NCBI RefSeq assembly: GCF_000236685.1
Contig: NC_016633.1
Span: 3,415,815-3,479,814 of the forward strand
Source: Sphaerochaeta pleomorpha str. Grapes
GTDB taxonomy: Bacteria; Spirochaetota; Spirochaetia; Sphaerochaetales; Sphaerochaetaceae
Direction of reading: 5' to 3'
Length of the DNA: 64,000 nt
Position 1 is the first letter of the stretch. Each line of letters starts with the position of its first letter. Made by a program: the position numbers and the translations under genes. The notes under the pieces were generated by a model. That model made no database searches. It saw only the letters and a list, made by a program, of their open reading frames with translations, and was not told where the DNA came from. Shown here one piece after another: positions 4,621-30,233 of this stretch.

Positions 4621-5847
4621 TTACTTCTCAAACCGTTTGATCACTGCTTCCTTGCTGTTCTCAATTGCCTCGGGAATGGAAACCCTTCCGGTGAAGACTG
4701 CCATATCCTTGAAACCGGTACCGGTGAGAAGCGTACAGACGCTGACATCCTTTCCGAATTTCTCGATGAGCATCTTGCTATCCTTGACAACCCCGGCCCA
4801 GGCACAGGCTGCTGCAGGCTCGACAAAAATGCCGGCTTCCCTGGTCAGTTCAAGCTGGGCGTCAAGGATTTCACTGTCGTCAACCTCAGTAGCCCAACCC
4901 TCGCATTCGTTGATATAGCGCACGGCCATACGCCCGTTTGCAGGACTTTCGACGCTGATGCTGTCAGCACGGGTGGTAGCTGCCTCGATGCAACTGAAAT
5001 CCCCGGTCTTCCACGCTTTGCTGATTGCATTGCTCTGCTTGCTCTGTACACAGATGATATGGGGCATTTTCTCGATAAGCCCTGCTTCCTTGAGGTCGTA
5101 GAAACCCTTGAAGACCCCGGCATAGATACAGCCGTCCCCAACTGGCACATAGACCACATCGGGAACCTTGCGTCCCATCTGCTCGAACAGCTCGATGGAA
5201 ATGCTCTTTTTGCCTTCGATGGTCATGGGGTTGTAGGCGGTATTGCGGTTGATTCCCCCGAAACGCTCGGTATAGGCAATGGAAAGGGCAAAGGCATCAT
5301 CATAGGTGCCCTTTACCGGTACTACCGTTGCCCCATAGAGAACGCTCTGCATCAATTTGTTAATCGGGGCTGAGGCAGGGACAAAGAGAATGATTTCCAG
5401 ACCATAGGCAGCTCCTGCACAGCTCATTGCAGCCCCGGCATTCCCGGTAGAGGCCAAGGCAATACGGTTTTCCCCATGGGCGAGGGCTTGGCCTACGATC
5501 AACTGGCTGGCACGGTCCTTGAAAGAGCCAGAGGGCAGGGTGCTGTCCAGTTTGCAGCTAAGATTCTTGATACCGTATTTTTTAGCAAGGCGAACTGGTT
5601 CTGCCAAGGGAGTCCCCCCTACTGGGTAGGCTGAGGGAGTAGGAACTTCGTAGGGAAAGAAATCATACATAGTGACATGTTCTTTTTGGGCAAGGGTTTT
5701 CAAGTCTTCCTTGTTAAGTTTGACTATCAAGTTGCCTTTGGGGAACGAGGTCCCGTCATTGAGCTTGGCACAGGTTGGACACTGGTAGATTACCTCGCCC
5801 GTTTCAAATACATTGCCGCAATCGCAGCATTCATAGGTAAAACGCAT
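4621..5847 (-). CDS. Threonine-synthase-like PLP enzyme with N-terminal zinc ribbon
   Basis: A fold-type-II PLP enzyme of 408 aa. An N-terminal zinc ribbon uses C7-x2-C10 and C23-x2-C26. The PLP lysine is K110 in P-S-G-S-F-K-D-R-A-S, and the cofactor ring-binding loop S-T-G-N-A-G is at 133-138. A late P-V-G-D-G-C-I-Y-A-G loop corresponds to the phosphate-binding turn. SFKDR is typical of threonine synthase, so ordinary ThrC (phosphohomoserine to threonine) is possible. No hom or thrB is nearby. It shares an operon with another PLP enzyme next to the purine island, so a ureido- or diamino-acid lyase role is an alternative. GGAGG precedes the ATG. Confidence 0.8.
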   Translation of the reverse strand: MRFTYECCDCGNVFETGEVIYQCPTCAKLNDGTSFPKGNLIVKLNKEDLKTLAQKEHVTMYDFFPYEVPTPSAYPVGGTPLAEPVRLAKKYGIKNLSCKLDSTLPSGSFKDRASQLIVGQALAHGENRIALASTGNAGAAMSCAGAAYGLEIILFVPASAPINKLMQSVLYGATVVPVKGTYDDAFALSIAYTERFGGINRNTAYNPMTIEGKKSISIELFEQMGRKVPDVVYVPVGDGCIYAGVFKGFYDLKEAGLIEKMPHIICVQSKQSNAISKAWKTGDFSCIEAATTRADSISVESPANGRMAVRYINECEGWATEVDDSEILDAQLELTREAGIFVEPAAACAWAGVVKDSKMLIEKFGKDVSVCTLLTGTGFKDMAVFTGRVSIPEAIENSKEAVIKRFEK

Positions 5848-5860
5848 TTTTCCTCCAGGA

Positions 5861-5890
5861 TAAAAAATGCCGGACAGTTAAGCCCGGCAT
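5861..5890 (-). terminator. Terminator-like hairpin between the two PLP genes
   Basis: ATGCCGG (5867-5873) pairs with CCGGCAT (5884-5890). On the minus strand the stem is followed by six T and then, after only a few bases, by the GGAGG site of the downstream gene. It could limit read-through into the threonine-synthase-like gene. Confidence 0.7.
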
Positions 5891-12476: not shown

Positions 12477-15400
12477 ATGGCAGACATCATGCGTCCTGTT
12501 CCATTTTCGGAACTACTTAGCCGTATTGTTGGAGAATATCGTAACCACCATTCAATTTTTGGACTTGCCGAGGAGCAGTTCTATACAGACAAAGGCAAAC
12601 ATGACCTGAAGGTATTTGGCCAGCATTGCAGCACCGCATGTGGTCCCGCTGCAGGCCCCCATACCCAGCTTGCCCAGAATATTGTCACCAGTTACCTTGC
12701 CGGTGGCCGGTTCATGGAACTGAAGACCGTACAGGTCATGGATACCCTTGAGATCGACAAACCCTGTATTGATGCCCGCGACGAAGGCTATAATGTGGAA
12801 TGGTCCACAGAATATTCCCTTCCCAAGGCTTGGGACGAATATGCAAAGGCTTGGATCATCCTGCATGTCATTGAAGCTTTGCAGGGCAAAGGCAAATTCG
12901 AGAAGCCTTCCTTTATTTTCAATATGTCCGTCGGATATAACCTTGAAGGAATCAAGACGGCAAAGATGCAACAATTCATCGACTCGATGATTGATGCGAA
13001 CAAGGATCCCCGCTTTGCAGAATATCTGGCTGAACTGGATGCAATGGTCGAAGAAGGCCTGCTCGATGGTTCCCCCTGGGATGGTATGGAAAAGAAGCTC
13101 AAGGGCATTTCTTCCAAAATCAGCGCCAATATCAGCCCCTCGACCACCATCAGCACCATGCATGGCTGTCCTCCCAAGGAAATTGAAGCCATCTGCACCT
13201 ATATGCTCACCGAAAAGAAAATCGACACCTTTGTAAAGCTCAACCCAACGTTGCTCGGCTATGACAAAGTCCGTGAGATCCTGGACAACCTCGGATTCGA
13301 TTATATCGGTCTGACAAGAGAAAACTTCGAGCATGACCTGCAGTACAATGATGCAATTGCCATGCTTCATCGTTTGGTAGACCTGGCAAAGAAAGAAGGG
13401 AAGGGTTTCGGCGTAAAACTGACCAATACCCTTGGTTCTGTCAACGACCAGGGCGTTCTTCCCGGCAAAGAGATGTATATGTCCGGCCGTGTCCTTCTTC
13501 CTATTTCTACCACCGTTGCAAGCTGGCTGAGTAAGGAATTCGGTGGAAAACTCCCTGTTTCCTATAGTGGCGGCGCCAATGCGCTTACCGTCCAGGCTCT
13601 TTTTGAGACCGGCATCCGCCCCATTACCCTTGCTACCGATATGCTCAAGCCGGGCGGGTATTCCCGTCTGAACCAGATGGTATCCATCCTGGAAAAGAGT
13701 AAAGCCTGGGATATGGATTCCATCGATGTTGAGAAAATCGAAAAGCTTTCCAATGACGCCTGCACTGGCAAATTTGCCGTGACCGAGAAGGAATTCCGTG
13801 GTACAGACAGCATTAAGATAGGCCAAGACCTTCCTTTATTCGACTGCTATGTTGCTCCCTGCCAGGTTGCCTGCCCCATCCATCAGGATGTTCCAGAGTA
13901 TGTCCAGCTTGTCGGAGAAGGCCGCTATGCCGATGCCCTTACCCTTATTTATGACAAGAACGCACTTCCTGCAATTACTGCAAACATCTGTGACCACCAG
14001 TGCCAGTTGCATTGTACCCGTATGGATTACGAAGGTGCTGTGCAGATTCGCGAGATGAAAAAACTTGCAGTGGAGAATGGATTCGAGGAGTTTAAGAAAT
14101 CCTGGGAAGGTCCTACTGACAAGAGCGAAATCAAAGCCGCTGTCGTTGGTGCCGGTCCTGCAGGTCTCTCTGCTGCCTATTTCCTTTCCCGCAGTGGCTT
14201 TGACACCACGGTCTTTGAACGGGAGGAGAATGCAGGCGGCGTAGTACGCCATGTCATTCCTGGTTTCCGTATCCCTGTCGAGGCCATAGAGAGTGATATT
14301 GAGTTCATCAAAGCACATGGTGTGGATTTCCGCTTCTCTGCAAAGAGCGAGGATATTACCGTCAAGGCTTTGAAAGAATCAGGCTATTCCTATGTCTTCT
14401 ATGCTGTCGGTAGCGAAAAGGACAATGAAATCCCGCTTAAGGGAGAAACCAAGAATGTATTGCAGTCCCTTTCTTTCCTGGGTGCCTACAGAAAGGATCC
14501 GTCCTCTGTAACCTTGGGCAAAAACGTGGTGGTAGTCGGTGGCGGAAATACCGCTATGGACAGTGCCCGTGCAGCCCTCAGGGTCCCTGGAGTAGAGAAA
14601 GTCTCTGTGGTCTACCGCAGGACCGAGAAGGAAATGCCAGCCGACCTGGAAGAGTACGGCCTTGCCAAGGAAGAAAACGTAGAGTTCTTGTTCCTTGCAA
14701 ACCCTGAATCCTATGAAGGAAACAAGCTGGTTGTCCGCAAAATGGAACTCGGTGAAAAAGATGCTTCCGGCCGTTGTCGCCCGGTAGCTACCCAAGAGAC
14801 TTTCACCATGGTTGCAGACTCTATGATCACCGCCATCGGTGAACATGCCGACTCTGAAAAACTTACCTGGTACGGCGTACCGGTAAACGAGAAGGGTTGG
14901 CCGAAAACTGACAAGGAGACCTTGGAATCGGAAGTCGAGGGCGTCTATGCTATCGGTGATGTGCAAAGTGGTCCTTCGACCGTTGTCCGCTGTATCGCAA
15001 GTGCAAGGACTGCCGTAGAAGCCTGTATCGACAAGGTACTCGGTCCTCTTGAGGACGACGAAGAAGATGACTGTTGTTGTGGCCATGACCATAGCGAAGA
15101 CCATGAATGTTCCTGTGGCCACGACCACAGTGAAGATCATGAGTGTTGCTGCGGTGATGACGAGGACGATGACGATTGTTGCAGCGATGATGACGACGAT
15201 GACGAAATGAGCCCTGAGGAAATGGAAAACCTTGCAGCTGACGAGAATTCCTATTTTGCACTCATCAATGAAAAGAAGAGTCAGATTCTGGTTTCCAAGA
15301 GTGTCAGTGACAAGAAATTTGCAGAGACTGAGGCGAAGCGTTGCCTTGAATGTTCCTATATGTGTAACAAGTGCGTAGAGGTTTGCCCCAACAGGGCCAA

Positions 15401-15761
15401 CGTCGCAATCGATGTACGCAATACCGGGGTATTCGACAACCCGTTCCAGATTCTCCATCTCGATGCTTACTGCAACGAATGTGGGAACTGTGACACCTTC
15501 TGTCCTTGGACCGGTGGCCCGTATAAAAAGAAATTTACGCTCTTCAGCAGAATGGATGACTTTGAGAATTCTACCAACGAGGGTTTCTATTCTGACAATG
15601 GGGAAATCGTTATCAGGTTTGCTGGTAAGATTTACAATTGTTCAATGGACGAGGACGGGATCCTTGTAGGCGACCAAGAGGGAATCACCGATGAAGTCGC
15701 TGCCTTGATCGAGGAAGTGTTTACATCGTACAGCTATCTGCTGGGTGTCGTAGAAGACTAA
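12477..15761 (+). CDS. ygfK: YgfK, multidomain Fe-S flavoprotein of urate/selenium-linked purine metabolism
   Basis: 1094 aa. In order: a dihydroorotate-dehydrogenase-like TIM barrel (about 1-430; S-T-M-H-G-C-P-P-K-E-I-E-A); a glutamate-synthase-small-subunit-type Fe-S region starting C457-x4-C462-x3-C466; FAD motif G-A-G-P-A-G near 558; NAD(P) motif V-G-G-G-N-T-A-M-D near 687; a Cys/His/Asp-rich insert at 859-910; and two C-terminal 4Fe-4S motifs from C956 and about 999. Named a putative selenate reductase subunit, the family is genetically tied to anaerobic urate breakdown in E. coli and gut Firmicutes. It likely moves electrons between NAD(P)H and a purine substrate or the molybdenum hydroxylases. 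AAGGAG precedes the ATG. E. coli YgfK, from memory, is about 60 aa shorter, roughly the insert size. Confidence 0.92.
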   Translation: MADIMRPVPFSELLSRIVGEYRNHHSIFGLAEEQFYTDKGKHDLKVFGQHCSTACGPAAGPHTQLAQNIVTSYLAGGRFMELKTVQVMDTLEIDKPCIDARDEGYNVEWSTEYSLPKAWDEYAKAWIILHVIEALQGKGKFEKPSFIFNMSVGYNLEGIKTAKMQQFIDSMIDANKDPRFAEYLAELDAMVEEGLLDGSPWDGMEKKLKGISSKISANISPSTTISTMHGCPPKEIEAICTYMLTEKKIDTFVKLNPTLLGYDKVREILDNLGFDYIGLTRENFEHDLQYNDAIAMLHRLVDLAKKEGKGFGVKLTNTLGSVNDQGVLPGKEMYMSGRVLLPISTTVASWLSKEFGGKLPVSYSGGANALTVQALFETGIRPITLATDMLKPGGYSRLNQMVSILEKSKAWDMDSIDVEKIEKLSNDACTGKFAVTEKEFRGTDSIKIGQDLPLFDCYVAPCQVACPIHQDVPEYVQLVGEGRYADALTLIYDKNALPAITANICDHQCQLHCTRMDYEGAVQIREMKKLAVENGFEEFKKSWEGPTDKSEIKAAVVGAGPAGLSAAYFLSRSGFDTTVFEREENAGGVVRHVIPGFRIPVEAIESDIEFIKAHGVDFRFSAKSEDITVKALKESGYSYVFYAVGSEKDNEIPLKGETKNVLQSLSFLGAYRKDPSSVTLGKNVVVVGGGNTAMDSARAALRVPGVEKVSVVYRRTEKEMPADLEEYGLAKEENVEFLFLANPESYEGNKLVVRKMELGEKDASGRCRPVATQETFTMVADSMITAIGEHADSEKLTWYGVPVNEKGWPKTDKETLESEVEGVYAIGDVQSGPSTVVRCIASARTAVEACIDKVLGPLEDDEEDDCCCGHDHSEDHECSCGHDHSEDHECCCGDDEDDDDCCSDDDDDDEMSPEEMENLAADENSYFALINEKKSQILVSKSVSDKKFAETEAKRCLECSYMCNKCVEVCPNRANVAIDVRNTGVFDNPFQILHLDAYCNECGNCDTFCPWTGGPYKKKFTLFSRMDDFENSTNEGFYSDNGEIVIRFAGKIYNCSMDEDGILVGDQEGITDEVAALIEEVFTSYSYLLGVVED

Positions 15762-15771
15762 GGAGCGTGCC

Positions 15772-17094
15772 ATGTCAACAATAGTAATCAAGAACACCCG
15801 CGTTATGCAGACAATGCCTCCGTTTACCGTTACCACTGATGTGGATGTCGTCATCACCGATGACGTCATCCGCGCCGTGGGAAAGGGAGCAGGCTCGTCT
15901 GTGCAGGCGGACAAAGTAATCGACGGAAAAGGCAAGACGGTCATTCCTGGAAATGTCTGTGGTCACCACCACTATTATTCAGGGCTTTCCAGGGGCATGA
16001 TGATCTCAGCCGGTCCCCAGAACGATTTTATCCAAGTGTTGAAGGAATGGTGGTGGCGCCTTGACCGCGGACTCGATGAGGAAGCTTGTTATTACAGTTC
16101 ACTCATTTGCTCTCTCGACGCTATCAAGGCAGGTACAACTACCTGTATCGACCATCATGCGAGCCCAAACTATATTGCCGGTTCGCTCGATACCATTGCC
16201 AATGGAATGGAAAAAGTCGGTGTACGGGGAACTACCTGTTATGAAGTAACTGACCGGAACTTTGGTATGAAAGAAGTCGAAGACGGGGTTAGTGAAAATA
16301 TTTCCTTTGCCAAGTCCAGTAAGAAGCGCACCTTGGTTCGCGGAATGATCGGAGGCCATGCCCCCTTTACCATTCCCGATGAGGGTTTGCGCCTGATGGG
16401 TGAGGCGATGAGGGAAACGGGTGCCGGTTTGCACTTGCACGTGGCTGAGGATAAGTACGATGTCGTACATTCCCACCATCACTACAACAAGGACATCGTT
16501 GACCGGCTTGACTCGTTCGGTCTGCTTACCCCGAATTCATTGTTGGTTCACGGCCTTTGGCTGAATGGCAAGGAAATCGAGAAGATCAACGAACATGATT
16601 GTTTCTTTGCCCACAACGCCCGTAGCAACATGAACAACAATGTCGGTTACTGCCAGCACATCCAGGATGTAAAGAACTTGATCATCGGGACCGATGGTTG
16701 CGGTGGAAATATGTTCGAGGAACTCAAACTTGCCTTCTTCAAGCATAAGGACGAAACAGGATCCTGGTGGCCCGGTGATTATCTTACCGCCCTCTCCAGG
16801 GGAAACAAACTGGTCGAGAAGTATTTTGATGGGAATTTCGGAAGGGTTGAGGCAGGCTACAAAGCTGACTTGGCTATTCTCGACTACCAAAACCCGACTC
16901 CTCTGTTGGAAGGCAATGCCGCTGGGCATTTTGTTTGGGGCATGAGCAGCAATTGTGTCGAAAGTGTAATTGTAAACGGGAAACTGGTTATGGAAAATCA
17001 TTCCTTCCCAGGACTCGATGTAGCAGAAATCTATGCCCAGGCGGCGAAAGTTGCCGAACGCGTATGGAAAAAAGTTGACAAAATCGCTCCCTAA
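15772..17094 (+). CDS. ssnA: SsnA, amidohydrolase-family aminohydrolase
   Basis: 440 aa, metal-dependent amidohydrolase close to E. coli SsnA over its length. N-terminal metal motif H65-H66-H67 in C-G-H-H-H-Y-Y-S-G-L-S-R-G-M; further metal or catalytic residues in L-H-L-H-V-A-E-D (about 222), L-V-H-G-L-W-L and I-G-T-D-G-C-G-G. The stretch A-H-N-A-R-S-N-M-N-N is an SsnA hallmark. The family resembles guanine and cytosine deaminases; in urate clusters it is thought to act on a ring-opened or deaminated purine. AAGGAG lies before the ATG, 10 nt after ygfK, in the same operon. Confidence 0.93.
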   Translation: MSTIVIKNTRVMQTMPPFTVTTDVDVVITDDVIRAVGKGAGSSVQADKVIDGKGKTVIPGNVCGHHHYYSGLSRGMMISAGPQNDFIQVLKEWWWRLDRGLDEEACYYSSLICSLDAIKAGTTTCIDHHASPNYIAGSLDTIANGMEKVGVRGTTCYEVTDRNFGMKEVEDGVSENISFAKSSKKRTLVRGMIGGHAPFTIPDEGLRLMGEAMRETGAGLHLHVAEDKYDVVHSHHHYNKDIVDRLDSFGLLTPNSLLVHGLWLNGKEIEKINEHDCFFAHNARSNMNNNVGYCQHIQDVKNLIIGTDGCGGNMFEELKLAFFKHKDETGSWWPGDYLTALSRGNKLVEKYFDGNFGRVEAGYKADLAILDYQNPTPLLEGNAAGHFVWGMSSNCVESVIVNGKLVMENHSFPGLDVAEIYAQAAKVAERVWKKVDKIAP

Positions 17095-17143: not shown

Positions 17144-18358
17144 ATGAGTATTCAGGAACAGATTAGAGCCAAGGCTGCCGAATATCGCGACTATACGGCG
17201 CTGAATCTCTCCAAAATGGTGCAAACCAAGAGCTATAGCTCCCAGGAAGAGGATGTTTGCCGCCTCATCGTTACTCTTTGCGAGGAAGCAGGGTTCGATG
17301 AAGTATATATCGATGGACTCGGTTCGGTTATCGGCCGTGTCGGCAACGGGCCTAAGAAACTGGCCTTTGATGCCCATATCGATACCGTTGAAGTCGGAAA
17401 CCTCAAAAACTGGGATTTCGACCCGTTCTCCGGTGAGATCAAAGACGGAAAGGTCTGGGGTCGTGGTACTTCCGACCAGAAAGGTGGCGCAGCTTCCATG
17501 ATCACTGCTGGTCGTATCCTCAAGGAGCTTGGCTACGGTGGCGAGTATACTTGTTACTTTACCTTTACCGTAATGGAAGAGGACTGTGACGGCATGTGCT
17601 GGAAATACCTCATCGAAGAAGAGAATTTCCGCCCTGACTTGGTTGTTTCCACTGAACCTACCTCCTGCCGCCTCTACCGCGGACATCGGGGAAGAATGGA
17701 AATCAGGATCATTCTCAAGGGCATTTCCTGTCATGGAAGCGCTCCCGAGCGTGGTGTCAGTGCAGCCTACAAGGCCGCTAAGGCAGCCCTTGCCATTGAG
17801 CAGCTCAATAAAGACCTCCAGCCCGACGAAGAGAAGTTCCTTGGAAAGGGAACCATCACGGTCAGCCAGATGGACGTCAAGGGACCCAGCCAGTGTGCAG
17901 TTGCCGACTATGCAATGCTGTATTGTGACCGCCGCCTGACTTGGGGTGAAGACGCCGACCTTGCTATCAGCCAGGTTCGTGAATATGTCTCCAAGGCTAC
18001 CGGGGACGATCCCGATTCAATCGTTGTCGAGATGCCCAACTATGAGAAAATCGGCTGGACCAAGAAGCCTTACTCTCAGGAACTGTATTTCCCAACCTGG
18101 AAGATCGATGCAAATCACAAGCTGGTCGAAGCCGGTGTCGCAGGACATGAGGCCCTTTTCGGAAAGGCTCCTGTCGTAGACAAATGGACTTTCTCCACAA
18201 ACTTGGTTGCTACCACCGGTCGTCACAAGATTCCAGCTATCGGTTTCGGACCTGGCGATGAGTCACAGGCTCATGCCCCTAACGAGATCAACCGCATAGA
18301 GGACCTTGAGATTTGCAGTGCGTTCTACGCAATGCTTCCGTATTCCTTGGAAAAATAG
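17144..18358 (+). CDS. ygeY: YgeY, M20-family hydrolase linked to selenium/purine metabolism
   Basis: 404 aa M20 metallohydrolase. Metal-site motifs: D-A-H-I-D-T with H78, G-R-G-T-S-D-Q-K-G-G with D111, catalytic pair E145-E146 in V-M-E-E-D-C-D-G, S-T-E-P-T, and a late H-A-P-N-E. A dimerisation lid (about 195-305) contains G-I-S-C-H-G-S-A-P-E-R-G. It matches the YgeY family, which is needed for anaerobic urate use and probably cleaves an N-carbamoyl or ureido amide bond in an intermediate such as a diureidopropionate. Third gene of the operon, with AAGGGG ahead of its start. Confidence 0.93.
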   Translation: MSIQEQIRAKAAEYRDYTALNLSKMVQTKSYSSQEEDVCRLIVTLCEEAGFDEVYIDGLGSVIGRVGNGPKKLAFDAHIDTVEVGNLKNWDFDPFSGEIKDGKVWGRGTSDQKGGAASMITAGRILKELGYGGEYTCYFTFTVMEEDCDGMCWKYLIEEENFRPDLVVSTEPTSCRLYRGHRGRMEIRIILKGISCHGSAPERGVSAAYKAAKAALAIEQLNKDLQPDEEKFLGKGTITVSQMDVKGPSQCAVADYAMLYCDRRLTWGEDADLAISQVREYVSKATGDDPDSIVVEMPNYEKIGWTKKPYSQELYFPTWKIDANHKLVEAGVAGHEALFGKAPVVDKWTFSTNLVATTGRHKIPAIGFGPGDESQAHAPNEINRIEDLEICSAFYAMLPYSLEK

Positions 18359-18397
18359 TTCTTTTTCTTTCCCTGGAGAATTTGTATTGTGTATATA

Positions 18398-18427
18398 CAG
18401 CCACAAGGCCTTTCTGGCTTGTGGCTG
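18398..18427 (+). terminator. Hairpin between ygeY and the hydroxylase genes
   Basis: CAGCCACAAG (18398-18407) and CTTGTGGCTG (18418-18427) form a perfect 10-bp stem. The following TTTGGTT is only weakly T-rich, so it is a partial terminator or an RNA processing site. A second inverted repeat (ATCCATTA...TAATGGAT) follows. Both lie in the 145-nt gap before the molybdenum subunit gene, so the downstream genes may be expressed separately. Confidence 0.55.
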
Positions 18428-18503
18428 TTTGGTTCTCTGGTTATCCATTATGTATTTTTACATTTAATGGATTGTACTGTATTGATTGCAAGGAGCAGAG
18501 TAG

Positions 18504-20651
18504 ATGGCACAGAAGCCTATTGCCGACCCTGTACGAAGGGTAGATGCTATAGCCAAAGGGAGCGGGACGCAAAAATATCTTACCGACTTCCAATTTGAGG
18601 ATATGCTGTACAGTCGAATGGTCCGCTCGAGTATTCCCCGTGGGATTATTAAGAATATTGAGGTCCCCCAGCTACCCGAAGGGTACTATTTCATTACTTA
18701 TAAAGACATTCCGAGTGACGGACGAAATGAACTTGCAATGATTGCAAAGGACTGGAAGTGTTTCGCCGAGAACGAAGTAAGGTATGTCGGTGAGACCATA
18801 GGCCTTTTGGTCGGGGAAGACAGGAATATCCTTGCCGATCTCCATGACCAGGTCAAAGTTACCTATGAGGAATTGGAACCTGCCATTTCCATTGAAGATG
18901 GCCTTGCCCTAAAAGGTGGTGCTTTTGTCAACGATGACAACATCTTCTGTGAGTTGCATACCGAGACCGGGGAAAACCTCGATGAGGTCTTTTTCCAGGC
19001 AGACCGTGTGTTCGAGGAAACCTACCGTACTGGATTCCAGGAACACGTTCATCTTGAAACCAATGGTGCGCTGTGCTGCAAGGAAGACGACAAGTTTGTC
19101 ATTTATGCCTCTGCCCAGTGTCCTTTCTATATTCGGAAATCCATTGCAGGGCTTCTTAACCTGCAACCCCAGGACATTATCGTGCGTCAGACGACTACCG
19201 GTGGTGCGTTCGGGGGAAAAGAGCATTTTCCCGATGTGCTCAGCGGTCCCCTGCTGGTAGCAGTCAATAAGATTGGCAAGCCGATCCAGCTTTCCTTCGA
19301 CCGGAGCGAGGACATGGAATACTCGGTCAAACGTCATCCGAGCAGGACGAAGATCAAGACAGCCCTGGACAAGGATGGGAATATCCTTGGCATGGATATA
19401 GATGTTGTCTACAATGTCGGGGGATATCTCTCCTGTTCGTTTGTTGTCCTGCAGCGTGGGGTTTTCCATGCAACGGGTTGTTATGCAATCCCCTCAACCA
19501 GGATACATGGACGCGGTGTGGCTACCAACACCTTCCCAAGCGATGCCTTCCGTGGTTTCGGAGCCCCCCAGACTATTTTCGCCATTGAACGGCATATGGA
19601 TCATCTCGCTGTGTTCCTCAAGAAAGACCCTCTGGAACTGAGGAATCAATATCTTCTAAAGAAAGGTTCGCTTACCTCTACCAATGGCCATGTCGTCGAA
19701 GACGTCAAGCTTCCCGAGATGATCAAACAGATTACCGATGCTTCCGATTACTGGCGCAAATCCAAGGAATATGACCGAGGCTCAGGAAAGGGTATCGGAA
19801 TTTCTTTGTATAACCATGGCGGTGCTTTTACCGGAAACGGTGAACAGATGATTATTAAAGCCCATGCAAGGTTGCATAAGAGCGCCGATGGCATGGTCGA
19901 AATCCTTGTCGGAAGTACCGAGATGGGGCAAGGTTTCCAGACCGCGGCACGTAAAATCGCCGCCCAGGTTCTGGATATTGATATCGACATGGTTACGTAC
20001 GAGAATCCCGATACGTCACGTGTTCCCGATAGCGGTCCGACGGCAGCAAGCCGTTCTACCATGATTGTCGGAAAACTGGTTGAACGGGCGGCCTTGCAGA
20101 TGAAGGACCGTTATGCCTCGGAAGAAGATTTCTCTGTCGAAGTTGAGTATGAACATCCCGAAGGTTTCCCCTGGGACCAGAAAACCTTCCAGGGTGATGC
20201 CTACCTCGGCTATGGCTGGGGGGCGGCAATCGTCGAGGTTGAGCTCGATCCCCTTACTTCTGAAGTAGAGACAAAGGGAATCTGGGTCAGCCATGATGTA
20301 GGTCATCCAATTGATGAGCTCATCATCCGTGGACAGGTCCATGGAGGGGTGATGCAGAGCCTTGGCTATGCCTCAATGGAACTGCTGGAGAACAAGAAGG
20401 GTTATTTCAAGCAAAATTCCATGAGCGATTATATTATCCCGACTTCCATGGATTTCCCGAAAATGGAATCGTTTTTGGTTGATAACCCCTATCCCTATGG
20501 GCCTTTCGGGGCTAAGGGTATGGGTGAATTGGTGTTCAATGGAGCTGATGCCGCGTTCTGTGATGCGGTAAGCCGTGCCATTGATCGGAAAGTCTGCGAG
20601 ATTCCCATCCCGAGCGAAACTATTATGGAGCTACAGCTACATGGAAACTAA
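18504..20651 (+). CDS. Molybdenum hydroxylase large subunit (XdhA-like, xanthine dehydrogenase family)
   Basis: 715 aa. Molybdopterin-binding motifs in order: T-T-G-G-A-F-G-G-K-E-H (about 232), D-A-F-R-G-F-G-A-P-Q (about 350), G-S-T-E-M-G-Q-G (about 470), D-S-G-P-T-A-A-S-R-S-T, and the C-terminal F-G-A-K-G-M-G-E, whose Glu is the expected base. The chain begins directly with the aldehyde-oxidase/xanthine-dehydrogenase N domain, so Fe-S and FAD parts come from the next two genes. The substrate is probably a purine or another N-heterocycle; its genomic partners (ygfK, ssnA, ygeY) are those of the selenium-dependent molybdenum hydroxylases. No accessory selenium gene (yqeB, yqeC, selD) is in the window. 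Confidence 0.9.
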   Translation: MAQKPIADPVRRVDAIAKGSGTQKYLTDFQFEDMLYSRMVRSSIPRGIIKNIEVPQLPEGYYFITYKDIPSDGRNELAMIAKDWKCFAENEVRYVGETIGLLVGEDRNILADLHDQVKVTYEELEPAISIEDGLALKGGAFVNDDNIFCELHTETGENLDEVFFQADRVFEETYRTGFQEHVHLETNGALCCKEDDKFVIYASAQCPFYIRKSIAGLLNLQPQDIIVRQTTTGGAFGGKEHFPDVLSGPLLVAVNKIGKPIQLSFDRSEDMEYSVKRHPSRTKIKTALDKDGNILGMDIDVVYNVGGYLSCSFVVLQRGVFHATGCYAIPSTRIHGRGVATNTFPSDAFRGFGAPQTIFAIERHMDHLAVFLKKDPLELRNQYLLKKGSLTSTNGHVVEDVKLPEMIKQITDASDYWRKSKEYDRGSGKGIGISLYNHGGAFTGNGEQMIIKAHARLHKSADGMVEILVGSTEMGQGFQTAARKIAAQVLDIDIDMVTYENPDTSRVPDSGPTAASRSTMIVGKLVERAALQMKDRYASEEDFSVEVEYEHPEGFPWDQKTFQGDAYLGYGWGAAIVEVELDPLTSEVETKGIWVSHDVGHPIDELIIRGQVHGGVMQSLGYASMELLENKKGYFKQNSMSDYIIPTSMDFPKMESFLVDNPYPYGPFGAKGMGELVFNGADAAFCDAVSRAIDRKVCEIPIPSETIMELQLHGN

Positions 20652-21117
20652 CATAGAATTTACCTTGAATGGGGAACTTGTCTCCATTACTACCGATCCG
20701 CTTCGTCGTCTGCTTGACGTAATCCGGGAGGATTTCGGCCTTGTCGGAACCAAGGAAGGTTGCGGTGAGGGTGAGTGTGGGGCTTGTTCCGTCATTAAAG
20801 ACGGAAGGATCATCACTACCTGCATGGTTCCGATAGGGGCTGTCGGGGGAAGTTCCATCATGACAATCGACGGGCTGAAGGAAACCGCTCAGGGCAAGTG
20901 CATCATCGAAGCCTTTGCCGACGGAGGGGCTGTCCAGTGTGGGTTCTGCATCCCGGGTATGGTTATAGCCGCCGAGGATATGCTTACGCGCAACCCGCAT
21001 CCAAGCGAGCAAGAAATTCGTGCAGGTATCAGCGGGAATATCTGCCGCTGTACCGGCTATGATTTGATCGTGGAAAGTATCAAACTCGCCAGCGAGAGGG
21101 GGAATGGACTATGGTAA
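20641..21117 (+). CDS. [2Fe-2S] subunit of molybdenum hydroxylase (XdhC-like, CoxS family)
   Basis: 158 aa small electron-transfer subunit. The plant-ferredoxin cluster has C-G-E-G-E-C-G-A-C and a fourth Cys in I-T-T-C; the second cluster has Q-C-G-F-C and C-R-C in G-N-I-C-R-C-T-G-Y. All eight ligands are present. The start at 20641 overlaps the large subunit by 11 nt. Since the XdhD-like protein downstream has lost its own cluster ligands, this subunit might serve both hydroxylases. Confidence 0.93.
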   Translation: METNIEFTLNGELVSITTDPLRRLLDVIREDFGLVGTKEGCGEGECGACSVIKDGRIITTCMVPIGAVGGSSIMTIDGLKETAQGKCIIEAFADGGAVQCGFCIPGMVIAAEDMLTRNPHPSEQEIRAGISGNICRCTGYDLIVESIKLASERGNGLW

Positions 21118-21977
21118 CCTATATTCCGGAAACACTCGAAGAAGCTCTTGCTATCAGAAAAGAGAGTGGTGCTCGCCCCCTTGCAGGCGGTACCGATCTG
21201 ATGGTCCAGTATCGTCGGGGAGTAGGGGTAACGCCCAAGTTTCCCTGGCCGATCATGATAGTCAGCCAGCTTGCAGAGCTCAAAGGTATTTCTCAGGACC
21301 TCGATGGCAGCTGTGTAATCGGTGCCGGTGTTACCTCTACTGAGATTGCAGAATCGGAGATGGTACCCTTTCATGTACGTGAGGCAGCAAGCAGGATGGG
21401 CGCCATTTCGCTTCGCAACCTAGCCACGATAGGCGGAAACATCGGCAATGCTTCCCCTAAGGGCGACCTTCCTGCCGTTTTGATCCTTCTCGATGCTTCC
21501 CTTGTGCTGTCCAGTGTCAGCGGGGAGCGGATTGTCTTGCTTGACGATTTTATCGTGGGGGCAAAGAAGACACTCCTAAGAGAGGATGAGCTTATCACCA
21601 AAATTATCATTCCAAGGCCTGAAAAGCCATTTACCTATGTATGGTACCGTAAAATCGGAACCAGAAAGGCAAATGCAATAAGCAAACTATCCTTCTCAGC
21701 CGCCATGACTGTGGATGATGAGGGAATAGTCACTGATTTTCGAGCTTCCAGCGGTGCTGCAGGTCCGAAAATCGCAAGGAACAAAGAATTGGAATCCACT
21801 TTGATCGGGAAAAACATCGAGGATCTTCCCTCCATGATACCCGCCTTCCTTCTAGAATATGACAAGATCATATCGCCTCATGCCATGCCTGAGTACAGAA
21901 GGGAGTCGACAAAAAGAATGCTTGCTTATTTTTTGGAACAGGTCGCTAAAAGACCTGCATCGGAGATAATCAAATAG
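21111..21977 (+). CDS. FAD-binding subunit of molybdenum hydroxylase (XdhB-like, CoxM family)
   Basis: 288 aa. FAD motifs L-A-G-G-T-D-L-M (about 25-32) and R-N-L-A-T-I-G-G-N-I-G-N-A-S-P-K-G-D (about 102-119), followed by a CO-dehydrogenase flavoprotein C-terminal domain. It starts 7 nt before the end of the Fe-S subunit gene, completing a three-subunit enzyme encoded as Mo, Fe-S, FAD. It passes electrons from the Fe-S clusters to NAD or another carrier. Confidence 0.92.
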   Translation: MVTYIPETLEEALAIRKESGARPLAGGTDLMVQYRRGVGVTPKFPWPIMIVSQLAELKGISQDLDGSCVIGAGVTSTEIAESEMVPFHVREAASRMGAISLRNLATIGGNIGNASPKGDLPAVLILLDASLVLSSVSGERIVLLDDFIVGAKKTLLREDELITKIIIPRPEKPFTYVWYRKIGTRKANAISKLSFSAAMTVDDEGIVTDFRASSGAAGPKIARNKELESTLIGKNIEDLPSMIPAFLLEYDKIISPHAMPEYRRESTKRMLAYFLEQVAKRPASEIIK

Positions 21978-21985
21978 GAGTATCC

Positions 21986-23374
21986 ATGAAATCTTCCATT
22001 TTACTGAAGAACATTTTCTGCCTGCAACTGAGTTTTGACGGTCCTCAGTACAGGGGTGCCGATTTGCTGATAGTCGGGAATAAAGTTGCCAAGATGCAAC
22101 CTGAGGGTGGTTTGATCGCACCTGAGGGGGCCCGGGTCATCGATTGCTCGAGGCATGTGGTAATTCCCGGTCTGGTAAACACTCACCATCATTTCTACCA
22201 GACACTGACCAGAAACCATCCGGCTGTACAGAATGCAAAGCTCTTTGATTGGCTGAAGTTTCTCTATGATGTATGGAAATATGTCGATGATGAAGCTGTC
22301 TACTATTCCTCTATGCTCGCCATGGCCGAGCTGATGAAGACCGGTTGTACCTGTACCACTGACCACCATTACCTCTATCCGAGGAATTTCAAAGGCGATT
22401 TGATGGGGCTTCAGTTTGAGGCTGCCGACAAACTGGGAATGCGTTTTAGTCCCACAAGGGGCTCGATGAGCCTGAGCAAGAAAGACGGGGGACTTCCTCC
22501 TGACAGTGTCGTACAGACGACCGATGAAATTCTCGCCGATAGTGAACGTTGCATCCTGAAATATCATGATGATGCTCCTGATGCCATGCACAAGATTGCC
22601 TTGGCTCCCTGTAGCCCGTTCAGTGTTACCAAGGACTTGATGAGTGAGACAGCTATCCTGGCGAGGAAATACGGTGTAAGATTACATACGCACCTGTGTG
22701 AAACGGCTGATGAAGCTGATTTTTGCCAGAGTATGTACGGTATGCGCCCTGTAGCGTTGATGGAGGAATGTGGCTTGATCGGAAATGATGTGTTCTATGC
22801 ACATGGGATTCATTTCAATGACGAAGAACTCAAAGTTCTCCAAAATACCGGTACACATATTGCGCATTGTCCCTCTTCGAACATGAGACTGGGAAGCGGA
22901 ATCTGCCGCGTGCAGGATATGCTTAAAATGGGTATCAATGTAGGAGTGGCAGTTGACGGCAGTGCGAGCAATGACAGCTCGGATATGCTCAATGAGGTTC
23001 GCATGGCCATGTTGTTGCAGCGGGTCAAATATGGCTCCGATGCCCTTACTGCGTCAGAAGCTTTTACCATGGGAACCATAAACGGTGCGAAGATGTTGAA
23101 TTTCGGTAATGTCGGATGCCTGTTTGAGGGTTGGGCTGCCGATATGGCGATTTTTGATGTTTCTACCTTGCCTTATGCAGGCAGTCAGAGCGACCCAGTG
23201 GCAAGTCTGCTCTTCTGTGGAACAGACCATAACACAGATTATACGATTATTAATGGAAAAGTTGTAGTTGACCAAAGGCGGCTGGTTGGCTTCGACGAAC
23301 AGGCTCTTGCTGATAAGGCGAACGCTATCAGCAAAAAGCTTATGGATAAAGCTGCCAGAGGGGAGGCCGTATGA
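21986..23374 (+). CDS. 8-oxoguanine deaminase-like amidohydrolase (TrzN/AtzA-related)
   Basis: 462 aa amidohydrolase. Metal motif in L-V-N-T-H-H-H-F-Y-Q-T-L-T-R-N (H-x-H within 66-71), H-T-H-L-C-E-T (about 232), Y-A-H-G-I-H-F (about 270) and V-D-G-S-A-S-N-D (about 318). The combination H-H-H-F-Y-Q-T-L-T-R and V-D-G-S-A-S-N-D-S is the pattern of the 8-oxoguanine / isoxanthopterin / hydroxyatrazine group. 8-Oxoguanine deaminase makes urate, which fits the surrounding urate genes well. A clear AGGAG precedes the ATG. The precise substrate is inferred. Confidence 0.82.
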   Translation: MKSSILLKNIFCLQLSFDGPQYRGADLLIVGNKVAKMQPEGGLIAPEGARVIDCSRHVVIPGLVNTHHHFYQTLTRNHPAVQNAKLFDWLKFLYDVWKYVDDEAVYYSSMLAMAELMKTGCTCTTDHHYLYPRNFKGDLMGLQFEAADKLGMRFSPTRGSMSLSKKDGGLPPDSVVQTTDEILADSERCILKYHDDAPDAMHKIALAPCSPFSVTKDLMSETAILARKYGVRLHTHLCETADEADFCQSMYGMRPVALMEECGLIGNDVFYAHGIHFNDEELKVLQNTGTHIAHCPSSNMRLGSGICRVQDMLKMGINVGVAVDGSASNDSSDMLNEVRMAMLLQRVKYGSDALTASEAFTMGTINGAKMLNFGNVGCLFEGWAADMAIFDVSTLPYAGSQSDPVASLLFCGTDHNTDYTIINGKVVVDQRRLVGFDEQALADKANAISKKLMDKAARGEAV

Positions 23375-24204
23375 TACAGGAATTTCTCATTGCAACCAAT
23401 ACCGAGGATGCCCTCGAATTGAAACGTACACATGAGGGAAGCGTCTTTTATGCAGGTGGAACAGAAATCAACCGCTTAGGTTCGACAATCCAGGCCACGA
23501 CTGCAATCAGTCTTTCCAAATTGCGTCTGGATACGATAACAGAGGATGAATCGACGATTCGAATCGGCAGCATGGTCACGTTCCAGCAGTTACTCGAATC
23601 TCCCTTGGTTCCTCAGTGGCTCAAGGATGCGGCTTTGTTCTGCGGGTCGTTCCCGAAGAGAAACATGGCAACGATAGGTGGAAACCTTGCGCTCTGTCGC
23701 GATGATTCCTACCTTGGACCAGCGTTGCTGGCTTCCCGTTGTCGTCTTTGCACAGCAAGTCTTACCGAAAAAGGGGCATACTGCGAGGATAATATTCCTA
23801 TTCGTGAATATCATGCCTACCATGCCCAGTTCAAGGGAACCTTGTTGCTTGTCATTATTATTCCCAAGGCCTCGCGCTTCGTTGGTACCTTGCGGTTTGC
23901 CAATACGGTGGAAAGCCACGCAGCGGTAACCGTTGGTTTTGGGGCATCAGTGGATGGGGAAGGGGTTATTGACCATGTTCGTCTGTATGCTGCTGTAAAA
24001 GGTAGTCCTTTGCAGCGTTTGTCTGCGGTTGAAAATTCGATTGAAAACGGCGAATTGACAACCCAATCTGATGTTCAGCATGCCATTGCCCATGATATCG
24101 AGGCGAAGGATGATTTTAGTGGAAGTTCTGCCTATAAGCGGTACATTGCCAGTGATTCCCTTGCCCAATTGTTTGCCAAATTCCTGGCAGGAGGCGTGAA
24201 ATGA
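23371..24204 (+). CDS. ygfM: FAD-binding hydroxylase subunit, YgfM-like
   Basis: 277 aa. FAD motifs Y-A-G-G-T-E-I-N-R-L-G (about 27-37) and R-N-M-A-T-I-G-G-N-L (about 95-104). It overlaps the deaminase by 4 nt (ATGA) and the XdhD-like gene by 4 nt, so the three are translated together. E. coli places ygfM beside xdhD in the same way. It likely serves as the flavin subunit of the XdhD-like enzyme. Confidence 0.85.
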   Translation: MIQEFLIATNTEDALELKRTHEGSVFYAGGTEINRLGSTIQATTAISLSKLRLDTITEDESTIRIGSMVTFQQLLESPLVPQWLKDAALFCGSFPKRNMATIGGNLALCRDDSYLGPALLASRCRLCTASLTEKGAYCEDNIPIREYHAYHAQFKGTLLLVIIIPKASRFVGTLRFANTVESHAAVTVGFGASVDGEGVIDHVRLYAAVKGSPLQRLSAVENSIENGELTTQSDVQHAIAHDIEAKDDFSGSSAYKRYIASDSLAQLFAKFLAGGVK

Positions 24205-27080
24205 GTATTATTTCTTGTAATATAAACAATAGGAATGTCAAAATAGAAAGTAACGGTTCAGAATCGTTGCGAGAAATGTTGGTTCGAGCCGGACATTTTG
24301 CCGTTCGAGACAGTGATGACCGCGAAGGGTTTGCCGGAAGCGATACCATCATTTTCAATGATATGCCGGTGTATGCAAACCTGATGGTAGCAGGCCAGGC
24401 AGAGGGTGCGGTTATCCGAACCCCTGATAGCCTCGGGGATAGCCGTCACTTGAGTGCTGTCCAACAGGCAATGATAGATGCTGGTATTGTCCAGAGTGCT
24501 TACAATATTCCTGCTGCAGCCTTGCTGTTGACTTGGCTTCTGGAACATGAAAAAAATCCTACCAAAGAGCAGATCGATAATGTGCTTTCCGGTATCTTTA
24601 TCCGTGACACAGGGTATGAGCATTTCTACCTTGCAGTCAAATTGGCTTTGGAGAAAATGAAAGACGGGAAGTATTCATCTGAGATTTCCCCTTCTTTCCG
24701 GGAGAACCTCACCTATGTCGGCAAACCGAAGGCGAAGGTCGATGGTCCGCAGCTGGTAGCCGGAGAAAAGAGCTTTGTCGAGGATAGGGTGCTTCCAGGC
24801 TATAACAGCATGGTAGTTTTGCGCAGTCCTTATGCACATGCCTATATAAAGAAGATCGACACAAAAGAAGCTGAGGCGATGGAAGGTGTTATCGCCATCA
24901 TTACCGCAGATAACTGCCCAGACGTATTCTACATGCAGGCTGGTCAGGGGAACCCTGAGCCGAGTCCCCATGACAGGCGTTTGTTCAACCATAAGGTCAG
25001 GCACGTAGGTGACCGGGTCGCTGCCATTGTTGCCGAAACCGAGGAACAGGCCTTGGCTGCCCGCTCTGCTATCAAGGTAGAGTATGAAGTACTGAAACCG
25101 GTATTTACTGTAGAGGAAGCCATGGCTGAGGGTGCTCCCCTTGTGCATAACGGGGTTGTTGAATACCGCGTAGGCGCCCCTGCAGATTTGGATGAGTATA
25201 ATAAGAGTGCTGAGAAAAGAGACGGGAAAGTTGTCTACCAGTTCCCCCTCCATGGTGATATCCGCCACAACATTGCATCCGCAGCCCATGGCCAGATCGG
25301 CGATGTGGAAAAAGGATTTGCCGAAGCCGATGCCGTAGTTGAGAGAACCTACCAGACTTCCCAGATTCAATGTACCCCACTTGAACCCCATGTATGCTAT
25401 GCCAAGATTGACAATGGCCGACTGGTGCTCCATGCCTCTACGCAGGTACCTTGGCATGTGCGCCGCATTGTAGCCTGGGTCTGTCAGATTCCCGAGAACA
25501 AAATCCATGTCATCAAGGAAAAAGTTGGCGGCGGCTATGGTTCGAAACAAGATATCCTGGTAGAGGACCTGGTTGGATATGCAACCTGGTTGACTGGCAA
25601 GGCTGTCTATTACAGAAATACCCGCGAAGAGGAATTCATTGCAAACTCCACCCGTCATCCGATGAGGGTGACTGTAAAGATGGGGGCAAAGAAAGATGGA
25701 TCCCTTACTGCCGTGTATATGGACGTCAGGGCAAATACCGGTCCATACGGAAACCATTGTCTTACCGTTCCCATGAATGCCTGTTCGAAGACACTTCCTT
25801 TGCTCAAGTGTGACAACATGCGTTTCGATGTAATCACCTACTACACCAATATCCCTCCCACGGGAGCCTACCAGGGCTATGGGGCGCCGAAAGGGACCTA
25901 CGGGCTCATGGTGTGTATGGCAGAGCTTGCCGACAAGCTTGGCCTTGACTACTACCAGATGGCTATGAAGAACAAGGTTGAACCCGGGTATATGCTTGAG
26001 ATTCTCAAGGGCCTTGGCGAAGGACGTGAAGGTAACGTGGTTCCCGTTGGTTCGTGTGGTCTTGACCAGGCTCTCAAGCAGGGCGCGGAAATGATCCATT
26101 GGGGCAAGAAGGAGAAATCCAAAGATCCCGATTGGAAAATCGGAAAAGGTTTTGCGATGATCCAGCAAGGTTCAGGCCTTCCTGGGCTCGACCATGCAAA
26201 TGCTTGGGCAAAGCTTCTCACAGACGGCACCTTCCAGATTTTCAGTGGCGGTGCAGACTTGGGAACCGGACTCGATACGATCAGCGTCAAGATGATGAGC
26301 GAAGCATTCTGCATCGATATGGATAGTGTAACCGTTGTCAGTGGTGATACAGACAGTTGCACGTTCGATACCGGGGCCTATGCCTCGAGTGGAACGTTCT
26401 TCAGCGGGAATGCCTCCTATTATGCGGCAGAGGATCTGAAGAAGAACCTGCTTACAGAAGCTGCGTTGCAGATGGGTGAGGATTTCGACGACCTGATCTG
26501 TCGGGCTCCTGGCGAGGTCTACAGTACAAAGACAGGCAAGACCCTCAGCTATGCCAAGCTTTCCCATGATGCACTGACGGGAACCGGTCGGGGCCAAGTC
26601 ATGGGTCGTGCATCGTTTACTACGAATGCCAGCTCCATTCCCTATGGCGCCCATTTTGCCCAGGTTGCGGTCAATGTGAGGACCGGCCAGGTCAAGGTGC
26701 AGAAATTCTATGCGCTGCAGGATGCAGGGACTCCGATCAACCCGGAACTTGCTTTGTGCCAGATGTATGGGGCTGCGTTGAAGTCCATCGGGCATACCCT
26801 GACTGAGCAAATGGTACTTGATGGGGAAGGCCGTTGTGTTTCCGCCAATTTCACAGATTACGGGGTTCCGATGATCTGGGAAAAACCGGATGATTTCAAG
26901 GCTGTCTTGATTGATATCAATGATAACGATGGGCCTTATGGAGCAAAGTCAATCAGTGAGATTGCGACAAACGGGGCTGCCCCGGCTATCGCTACCGCTA
27001 TTCATGATGCATGTGGAATCTGGATGCGTTCCTGGCCTTTCTCGCCTGAGAAAATCCTGAAGGAACTCGGAAAGATTTAA
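24201..27080 (+). CDS. xdhD: XdhD-like molybdenum hydroxylase with degenerate ferredoxin domain
   Basis: 959 aa. Residues 1-160 keep the fold of a [2Fe-2S] subunit, but every ligand position is changed when aligned to the intact subunit at 20641: D40, A45, D48, N60, S99, N102, I134 and D136. Residues from about 170 form the molybdopterin part: V-G-G-G-Y-G-S-K-Q-D-I (about 443), G-A-Y-Q-G-Y-G-A-P-K-G, F-S-G-G-A-D-L-G-T-G-L-D, Y-A-S-S-G-T-F-F-S-G-N and Y-G-A-K-S-I-S-E with the catalytic Glu. E. coli XdhD is about the same length and, from memory, has the same substitutions, so the loss looks ancestral rather than a local decay. Probably a selenium-linked purine hydroxylase or reductase. Confidence 0.92.
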   Translation: MSIISCNINNRNVKIESNGSESLREMLVRAGHFAVRDSDDREGFAGSDTIIFNDMPVYANLMVAGQAEGAVIRTPDSLGDSRHLSAVQQAMIDAGIVQSAYNIPAAALLLTWLLEHEKNPTKEQIDNVLSGIFIRDTGYEHFYLAVKLALEKMKDGKYSSEISPSFRENLTYVGKPKAKVDGPQLVAGEKSFVEDRVLPGYNSMVVLRSPYAHAYIKKIDTKEAEAMEGVIAIITADNCPDVFYMQAGQGNPEPSPHDRRLFNHKVRHVGDRVAAIVAETEEQALAARSAIKVEYEVLKPVFTVEEAMAEGAPLVHNGVVEYRVGAPADLDEYNKSAEKRDGKVVYQFPLHGDIRHNIASAAHGQIGDVEKGFAEADAVVERTYQTSQIQCTPLEPHVCYAKIDNGRLVLHASTQVPWHVRRIVAWVCQIPENKIHVIKEKVGGGYGSKQDILVEDLVGYATWLTGKAVYYRNTREEEFIANSTRHPMRVTVKMGAKKDGSLTAVYMDVRANTGPYGNHCLTVPMNACSKTLPLLKCDNMRFDVITYYTNIPPTGAYQGYGAPKGTYGLMVCMAELADKLGLDYYQMAMKNKVEPGYMLEILKGLGEGREGNVVPVGSCGLDQALKQGAEMIHWGKKEKSKDPDWKIGKGFAMIQQGSGLPGLDHANAWAKLLTDGTFQIFSGGADLGTGLDTISVKMMSEAFCIDMDSVTVVSGDTDSCTFDTGAYASSGTFFSGNASYYAAEDLKKNLLTEAALQMGEDFDDLICRAPGEVYSTKTGKTLSYAKLSHDALTGTGRGQVMGRASFTTNASSIPYGAHFAQVAVNVRTGQVKVQKFYALQDAGTPINPELALCQMYGAALKSIGHTLTEQMVLDGEGRCVSANFTDYGVPMIWEKPDDFKAVLIDINDNDGPYGAKSISEIATNGAAPAIATAIHDACGIWMRSWPFSPEKILKELGKI

Positions 27081-27083
27081 CAA

Positions 27084-27139
27084 AGTTGCAACAAACTGCA
27101 ACACATTCCCTAGACAGGGGAACCTAGTCATGCTATAGT
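27084..27139 (+). promoter_or_regulatory. ygeW promoter with upstream decamer pair
   Basis: AGTTGCAACA (27084-27093) is followed directly by AACTGCAACA (27094-27103), like the pair ahead of ygfK. TAGACA (27111-27116), a 17-nt spacer and TATAGT (27134-27139) then form a good promoter. The decamers end 7 nt before the -35 box. Confidence 0.6.
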
Positions 27140-27183
27140 TCCGCTGTCAGGGTTTTTATGAAAATTACTAGGGAGGTTCCTAA

Positions 27184-28383
27184 ATGAAGGACAAAGCCGC
27201 TATTAAAAAAATGATCGAAGAGCTGAAAACGCTCAAGACCGACGACATGTACCTGAATGACTTTTTCCACACCTGGAAGGAGTCTGATGACGAGATTGAG
27301 GCTGTATTCGAAGTAGCAGAAATTCTTCGCGCCATGCGTGAGAACAATATTTCGACCAAGGTATTTGACAGCGGTCTTGGAATCTCCGTATTCCGCGATA
27401 ACTCAACCCGTACCCGTTTCAGCTTCACCAGCGCTTGTAACTTGCTCGGCCTTGCAGTCCAGGATCTGGATGAGAACAAGAGCCAGATTGCCCATGGTGA
27501 AACCGTCCGCGAGACTGCCAACATGATCAGCTTCATGGCTGATGTAATCGGTATCCGCGACGATATGTATATCGGAAAGGGTCACACCTACCAGAAAACA
27601 GTTGCAACTGCAGTTCAGGAAGGCTATGACGACGGGATTCTCGAACAGAGACCTACCATTGTCAACCTCCAGTGCGATATCGACCACCCGACCCAGTGTA
27701 TGGCTGACATGATGCACATCATCAACCATTTCGGTGGTGTTGAAAACCTCAAGGGTAAGAAAGTTGCAATGACCTGGGCTTATAGCCCCTCCTATGGCAA
27801 ACCCCTTTCTGTTCCCCAGGGAGTTATCGGTCTGTTTACCCGCTTTGGCATGGACGTAGTACTTGCCCATCCCGAAGGGTACAATGTAATGCCTGAGATC
27901 GAAGAAGTAGCCAAGGAAAATGCAGCAAAGTGCGGTGGATCCTACCAGAGGGTCAACAGCATGGAAGAAGCTTTCCAGGATGCCGATATCGTATATCCCA
28001 AGAGCTGGGCTCCGTTTGCCGTCATGGAAGAAAGGACCAAGATTGTTGAGAATGGCGATCAGGCTGCACTCAAGGACCTTGAGAAAAAATGCCTTGCAAC
28101 CAATGCTCAGTTCAAGAATTGGACTTGTACCGAAGATTTGATGAAGACAACCAAAGAAGGAAAAGCTTTGTATCTGCACTGCTTGCCAGCAGACATCACC
28201 GGTGTCTCCTGTAAAGAAGGCGAAGTTGAAGCTTCCGTATTCGATCGTTACCTGGTTCCTTTGTACAAGCAGGCTAGCTACAAACCCTATGTAATTGCTG
28301 CAATGATCTTCCTTGCAAAGTTCCAGAGCCCTTCAGCTAAGCTTGAAGAACTGCTTGAACAGGCAACCAAGAGAGTTCTCTAG
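27184..28383 (+). CDS. ygeW: YgeW, knotted carbamoyltransferase
   Basis: 399 aa aspartate/ornithine-carbamoyltransferase-fold enzyme. Carbamoyl-phosphate loop S-T-R-T-R at 74-78; D-I-D-H-P-T-Q near 160; the signature W-A-Y-S-P-S-Y-G-K-P-L-S-V-P-Q-G; Y-P-K-S-W-A-P; and H-C-L-P-A-D near 333. It is close to E. coli YgeW throughout. In urate clusters the reverse reaction is assumed: phosphorolysis of a ureido compound to carbamoyl phosphate and an amine, allowing ATP gain through carbamate kinase (not found here). It has its own promoter and terminator. GGGAGG precedes the ATG. Confidence 0.95.
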   Translation: MKDKAAIKKMIEELKTLKTDDMYLNDFFHTWKESDDEIEAVFEVAEILRAMRENNISTKVFDSGLGISVFRDNSTRTRFSFTSACNLLGLAVQDLDENKSQIAHGETVRETANMISFMADVIGIRDDMYIGKGHTYQKTVATAVQEGYDDGILEQRPTIVNLQCDIDHPTQCMADMMHIINHFGGVENLKGKKVAMTWAYSPSYGKPLSVPQGVIGLFTRFGMDVVLAHPEGYNVMPEIEEVAKENAAKCGGSYQRVNSMEEAFQDADIVYPKSWAPFAVMEERTKIVENGDQAALKDLEKKCLATNAQFKNWTCTEDLMKTTKEGKALYLHCLPADITGVSCKEGEVEASVFDRYLVPLYKQASYKPYVIAAMIFLAKFQSPSAKLEELLEQATKRVL

Positions 28384-29427: not shown

Positions 29428-29439
29428 AGGAAGGGGTTC

Positions 29440-30177: not shown

Positions 30178-30197
30178 CCAAAAGAAAGGGAAATAGA

Positions 30198-30232
30198 ACA
30201 GGCAGGTCTGGCAATTGACCTGCCTGTATTTA
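30198..30232. terminator. Bidirectional terminator
   Basis: ACAGGCAGGTC (30198-30208) and GACCTGCCTGT (30217-30227) form a perfect 11-bp stem between two convergent genes. It is moderately T-rich to the right (ATTTAT) and has TTCTATTTCCC to the left. Confidence 0.8.
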
Positions 30233-30233
30233 T

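Follow-up and report, generated by a model that had tools for sequence, protein, structure and literature searches.

The unstructured tail of Escherichia coli SlyD, made up of His, Cys, Asp, and Glu, can take up as many as 7 Ni(II) ions (PMC7055735). A 2025 study of reductive urate degradation assigned the reduction of urate to yanthine to XdhD and the reduction and opening of yanthine to YgfK acting with SsnA; in that work, YgfK is a flavin-dependent yanthine reductase rather than a hydroxylase subunit, NAD(P)H-dependent yanthine reduction was demonstrated for the E. coli enzyme, and its clusters were reconstituted anaerobically before assay (PMC12507026). The window analyzed here, a stretch of 64,000 nucleotides from Sphaerochaeta pleomorpha str. 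Grapes, encodes a YgfK with an acidic insert rich in cysteine and histidine. Our analysis suggests, with a probability of roughly 0.6, that a disordered acidic linker has turned into a multi-site metal-binding segment in the Sphaerochaeta family (Sphaerochaeta and relatives), where it could act as a metal buffer or loading arm. Literature searches of partial coverage yielded no account of such a YgfK insert.

The identity of YgfK was supported by NCBIfam TIGR03315, whose profile scored 1406.7 bits against a curated cut-off of 835.3, and the start at ATG 12477 gives an N terminus (MADIMRP) that agrees with relatives. Yanthine reductase activity, as in E. coli YgfK, is expected of this protein. 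The ssnA gene starts 10 bp downstream of ygfK, and the order ygfK-ssnA-ygeY-xdh genes-ygfM-xdhD-ygeW constitutes the reductive uric-acid neighborhood expected for YgfK (Table 1). In the family synteny comparison, this order was conserved around both insert-rich and insert-poor ygfK. The cluster also contains a second amidohydrolase, of the 8-oxoguanine deaminase type (NF006055, 589 bits; window 21986-23374), whose presence at this site is conserved across the family; after the cluster come an aldo/keto reductase, an open reading frame without a Pfam match, and a transporter of the MatE type (window 28570-31577).

Table 1. Features of the ygfK locus and of the second protein carrying the same Cys/His units (window coordinates, except for the last row).
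Feature	Coordinates	Strand	Basis
ygfK, yanthine (2,8-dioxopurine) reductase / 'putative selenate reductase subunit YgfK', 1094 aa	12477..15761	+	TIGR03315, PMC12507026
FAD/NAD(P)H-binding domain, residues 553-853, upstream of insert	14133..15035	+	PF07992 match 554-842, model
Acidic Cys/His-rich disordered insert, YgfK residues 859-910	15051..15206	+	composition, pLDDT
Repeat unit 1, CGHDHSEDHEC	15078..15110	+	
Repeat unit 2, CGHDHSEDHEC	15114..15146	+	12-residue period from unit 1
C-terminal domain, residues 953-1094, downstream of insert	15333..15758	+	invariant Cys columns
ssnA, amidohydrolase acting with YgfK	15772..17094	+	TIGR03314/NF005540 above cut-off, synteny, PMC12507026
Remaining reductive uric-acid degradation genes: ygeY, xdh-type Mo/Fe-S/FAD subunits, 8-oxoguanine-deaminase-type aminohydrolase, ygfM, xdhD, ygeW	17144..28383	+	
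TPR protein ending in CxCGHxH units	G000:C1:3351238-3352572 (L268, 1309-2646)	-	

Translation of the insert in the YgfK frame gave the 52 residues EDDEEDDCCCGHDHSEDHECSCGHDHSEDHECCCGDDEDDDDCCSDDDDDDE, comprising 10 Cys (19%), 6 His, 29 Asp or Glu, and no Lys or Arg, in agreement with the acidic, Cys- and His-rich composition described in the sequence-only reading, made from the DNA letters and their open reading frames. Its second observation, that the unit CGHDHSEDHEC occurs twice while the DNA copies differ synonymously, was likewise confirmed. The two 33-nt copies show five differences (cat/cac twice, agc/agt, gac/gat, gaa/gag), all at third positions and all synonymous, an outcome with a chance probability between 4e-5 and 1.5e-3 according to transition bias, assuming that all substitutions are equally acceptable. 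The DNA repeat at a lag of 36 nt spans 60 nt, over which first, second, and third codon positions differ 1, 2, and 9 times, respectively. Across the family, the unit making up the insert is CxCGHxHx(4-6)EC.

An AlphaFold model of YgfK built with 22 sequences (mean pLDDT, 81.5; pTM, 0.75) showed pLDDT values of 26-34 over residues 858-910, with the drop below 50 coinciding exactly with these residues. This segment is flanked by helix 836-855, with which the FAD/NAD(P)H domain ends, and by helix 913-934, the lead-in to a C-terminal domain bearing two clusters of Cys residues (C956, C959, C963, C966, and C970; C999, C1002, C1005, and C1009), all in invariant alignment columns. The insert is thereby predicted to be a disordered interdomain linker that tethers the FAD/NAD(P)H domain to the C-terminal 4Fe-4S domain. 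In Foldseek, the middle part of the modeled protein resembled NfnA, the glutamate synthase small subunit, and dihydropyrimidine dehydrogenase; sequence searches returned neither a solved structure of YgfK itself nor a match of the insert to solved structures. The insert lies outside the catalytic core and is dispensable for yanthine reduction, because E. coli-type enzymes without it perform the reaction. Its location immediately before the two Cys clusters, together with the anaerobic reconstitution used in assaying E. coli YgfK (PMC12507026), would suit a local iron/thiol store or redox element whose Cys and His help in the assembly, repair, or protection of the 4Fe-4S clusters in the C-terminal domain; however, inspection of the insert found no CxxCxxC...C motif of 4Fe-4S ferredoxins, and the same clusters are present in species without the insert, which makes such a function improbable.

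Internal repeats above threshold were detected in frame in 43 of 101 distinct family linkers and in none at out-of-frame lags; the repeat in the insert is therefore more than chance, and the segment has expanded through such repeats. The most common period was 12 residues, and the differences between repeat copies numbered 75, 51, and 272 at codon positions 1, 2, and 3. Among 24 close pairs, pN/pS was 0.12 in the insert versus 0.10 in the adjoining folded domain, and the fraction of residues substituted in the insert was 1.0% for Cys, 5.8% for His, 16.7% for Asp, and 11.5% for Glu. Since alignment can favor Cys-Cys matches, the comparison was rerun on gap-free disjoint pairs, where 0 of 62 Cys, 3 of 73 His, and 85 of 615 other residues were substituted (Cys and His versus the rest, Fisher p = 2e-5, a guide only, as residues from eight pairs were counted). 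Across both close-pair sets, substitution thus affected 0-1% of Cys, 4-6% of His, and 10-17% of other residues. One-step neighbors of the prevailing codons were all but missing from the segments (AAR, 8 versus GAR, 1355; CGY, 0 versus TGY, 497; TAY, 27 versus CAY, 563), although these counts are supporting evidence only, given that the segment definition itself favors Asp, Glu, Cys, and His. The codon-position bias between repeat copies and the low pN/pS with near-invariant Cys and His lend strong support to selection at the level of the peptide, as the sequence-only reading had proposed, and the substitution pattern shows purifying selection acting on the Cys and His of the insert.

YgfK was matched at E < 1e-180 in 131 of the 139 genomes of the Sphaerochaeta family, from which 126 linkers were extracted and scored as rich when Cys and His together numbered at least 5. 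Which YgfK proteins carry the insert, a question raised by the sequence-only reading, was answered by alignment: 101 of the 126 family linkers are rich, about one fifth have few or no Cys and His, and the insert is absent from all 47 YgfK-type proteins outside the family (other families of the phylum, Enterobacteria, Cloacimonadota, Ignavibacteria-type, and others), the enterobacterial proteins (L054, L055) having an ordinary linker. In a tree of the conserved YgfK parts, rich linkers occur in both branches of the deepest split within the family, and at least 10 changes of state are required; the Cys/His-rich insert was therefore probably present in the family's ancestor, with repeated losses thereafter. 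Poor linkers retain a purely acidic stretch, or none in the fast-evolving G136-G138, whose long branches make their placement in the tree unsure. The sequence-only reading had set its claim against an insert random in length and composition among close relatives: the length does vary widely, with common indels, but the composition is much less variable and non-random. The family thus keeps the kind and number of putative ligands more than their positions. The insert offers a clean example of residue-type selection in a disordered segment, with Cys and His kept while length and order drift. The same variability might be expected of an acidic flexible spacer in which length and charge matter and Cys and His are tolerated by-products of repeat expansion, the codons for Cys, His, Asp, and Gly being one or two bases apart; several clades (G131, G135, G130, G128, G004, and G112) indeed have a purely acidic linker without Cys or His. 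This explanation is doubtful, as substitution within the segment is lowest at Cys and His, and the scarcity of one-step codon neighbors lends supporting evidence in the same direction.

Within real genes of the window's genome, a DNA pattern search located two copies of CxCxHxH in YgfK, another two in a TPR protein, where they lie in the C-terminal tail, and none elsewhere, the other matches in the genome being short non-coding frames; a protein search with the insert returned only YgfK and missed this tail. The tail reads CSCGHQHGEEGCSCNHDH, with units also given as EGHACSCGHQHGEEGCSCNHDHEEE, and TPR was the sole type of Pfam match in the protein. TPR tails with at least two Cys and at least two His were present in 34 of 94 family members, reaching a maximum of 14 Cys and 34 His (G138). 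The CxCGHxH module is thus portable and not YgfK-specific, making a role tied to the particular chemistry of YgfK less likely, and the TPR carrier lets its function be tested apart from YgfK. The occurrence of these units at a free terminus in an unrelated protein, a position that calls for no spacer, further disfavors the spacer explanation, and their occurrence in a protein with TPR-only Pfam matches speaks against an iron/thiol store. One unit type on two unrelated proteins, whose Cys and His contents correlate across genomes (rho = 0.51), could also reflect a partner-recognition module read by a common partner with or without metal. We regard this as very unlikely, since the covariation lost significance after tree correction (of the independent pairs, 2-3 agreed in direction and 0-1 were opposed) and was dropped, and since the variable arrangement of units speaks against a shape-specific interface.

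The sequence-only reading had further proposed that the insert may hold or hand over a metal or selenium for the molybdenum hydroxylases. In its favor, ygfK is clustered with XdhD-type hydroxylases, and the raw median of Cys and His in the insert was 11 in genomes with selD versus 4 in those without (p = 3e-5, uncorrected for kinship). Of the 139 family genomes, 121 have selD (117 above the cut-off) and 128 have yqeB, the latter regardless of insert state. When placed on the tree, however, the selD association yielded 2 of 14 independent pairs with, 0-1 against, and 11-12 without a difference, and the raw link was rejected; co-occurrence of the insert with selD or yqeB beyond shared ancestry was not seen. 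The genomes without selD are concentrated in clades in which sister genomes with selD have linkers just as poor, and many of the selD absences may be assembly gaps. Because the association vanishes on the tree, a hand-over of selenium or molybdenum is unsupported; YgfK is, moreover, a separate enzyme, the yanthine reductase (PMC12507026), its counterparts in other lineages, Enterobacteria included, are without the insert, and an unrelated TPR protein bears the same module. Delivery to selenium-dependent molybdenum hydroxylases is therefore given hardly any weight here, although a weak selenium link may be compatible with so few informative pairs. Separately, yqeB (TIGR03309, 345-349 bits) was observed without a selD match in G109, G110, G114, and G115, all of one genus (G110 in one contig; G114 and G115 in two). 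In 2008, TIGR03309 was reported from selD-positive genomes only (PMC2276186).

If the linker is a metal-binding arm, as we favor, its paired CxC and HxH groups would bind several borderline or soft ions, with Zn2+ most likely and Ni2+, Co2+, or Cu+ as other candidates, and the acidic residues would contribute outer ligands, in the manner of the SlyD tail. The segment could then buffer metal locally or act as a loading arm, and the recipients might conceivably be SsnA and YgeY, metallohydrolases of the same pathway, or cofactor assembly in YgfK itself. Against a metal arm, the Cys/His-poor fifth of the family shows a visibly unchanged gene cluster, so any benefit of the insert is minor or conditional; against a supply to SsnA or YgeY, the ygfK-ssnA order is identical in species without the insert. 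A wider and distinctly speculative proposal is that the portable, rapidly rearranging CxCGHxH module carried by YgfK and by the TPR protein provides the whole family with a metal buffer or loading arm distributed through the cytoplasm, coupling metal supply to anaerobic urate degradation; if true, the metal store would be embedded in a catabolic enzyme and not in a dedicated chaperone. The insert is a candidate for metal handling within urate-degrading enzymes, which are now of interest in gout.

Compared with described systems, E. coli YgfK (TIGR03315, PMC12507026) belongs to the same family, with the same gene neighborhood and expected activity, whereas the enterobacterial linker is without the Cys/His-rich insert. 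The His-rich loops or tails of UreE and COG0523 GTPases resemble the insert in carrying HDH or HHH clusters in flexible segments; they are, however, mainly His, while CxC pairs are equally frequent in the insert, and YgfK is not a metal-trafficking protein. As an independent observation, a predicted lipoprotein-like binding protein (L101; G004, C19 near 5736-5879) contains several HDHEHNHECCGHDHNHD-type units and is probably a zinc-uptake solute-binding protein. Metallothioneins share with the insert the CxC motifs and the selection on Cys in a loose sequence, but they are small, stand-alone, and richer in Cys, in contrast to an acidic segment with 10 Cys among 52 residues inside a 1094-residue enzyme. 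The closest analogue is the tail of SlyD, an FKBP-type PPIase and nickel metallochaperone (PMC7055735), both segments being unstructured, species-variable, and rich in His, Cys, Asp, and Glu. Unlike SlyD, YgfK has no FKBP/PPIase domain in the Pfam scan and is a redox enzyme of purine catabolism, for whose insert metal binding is proposed by analogy, and the insert (residues 859-910 of 1094) forms an interdomain linker instead of a C-terminal tail. The insert most likely works like a SlyD tail, without YgfK being a SlyD.
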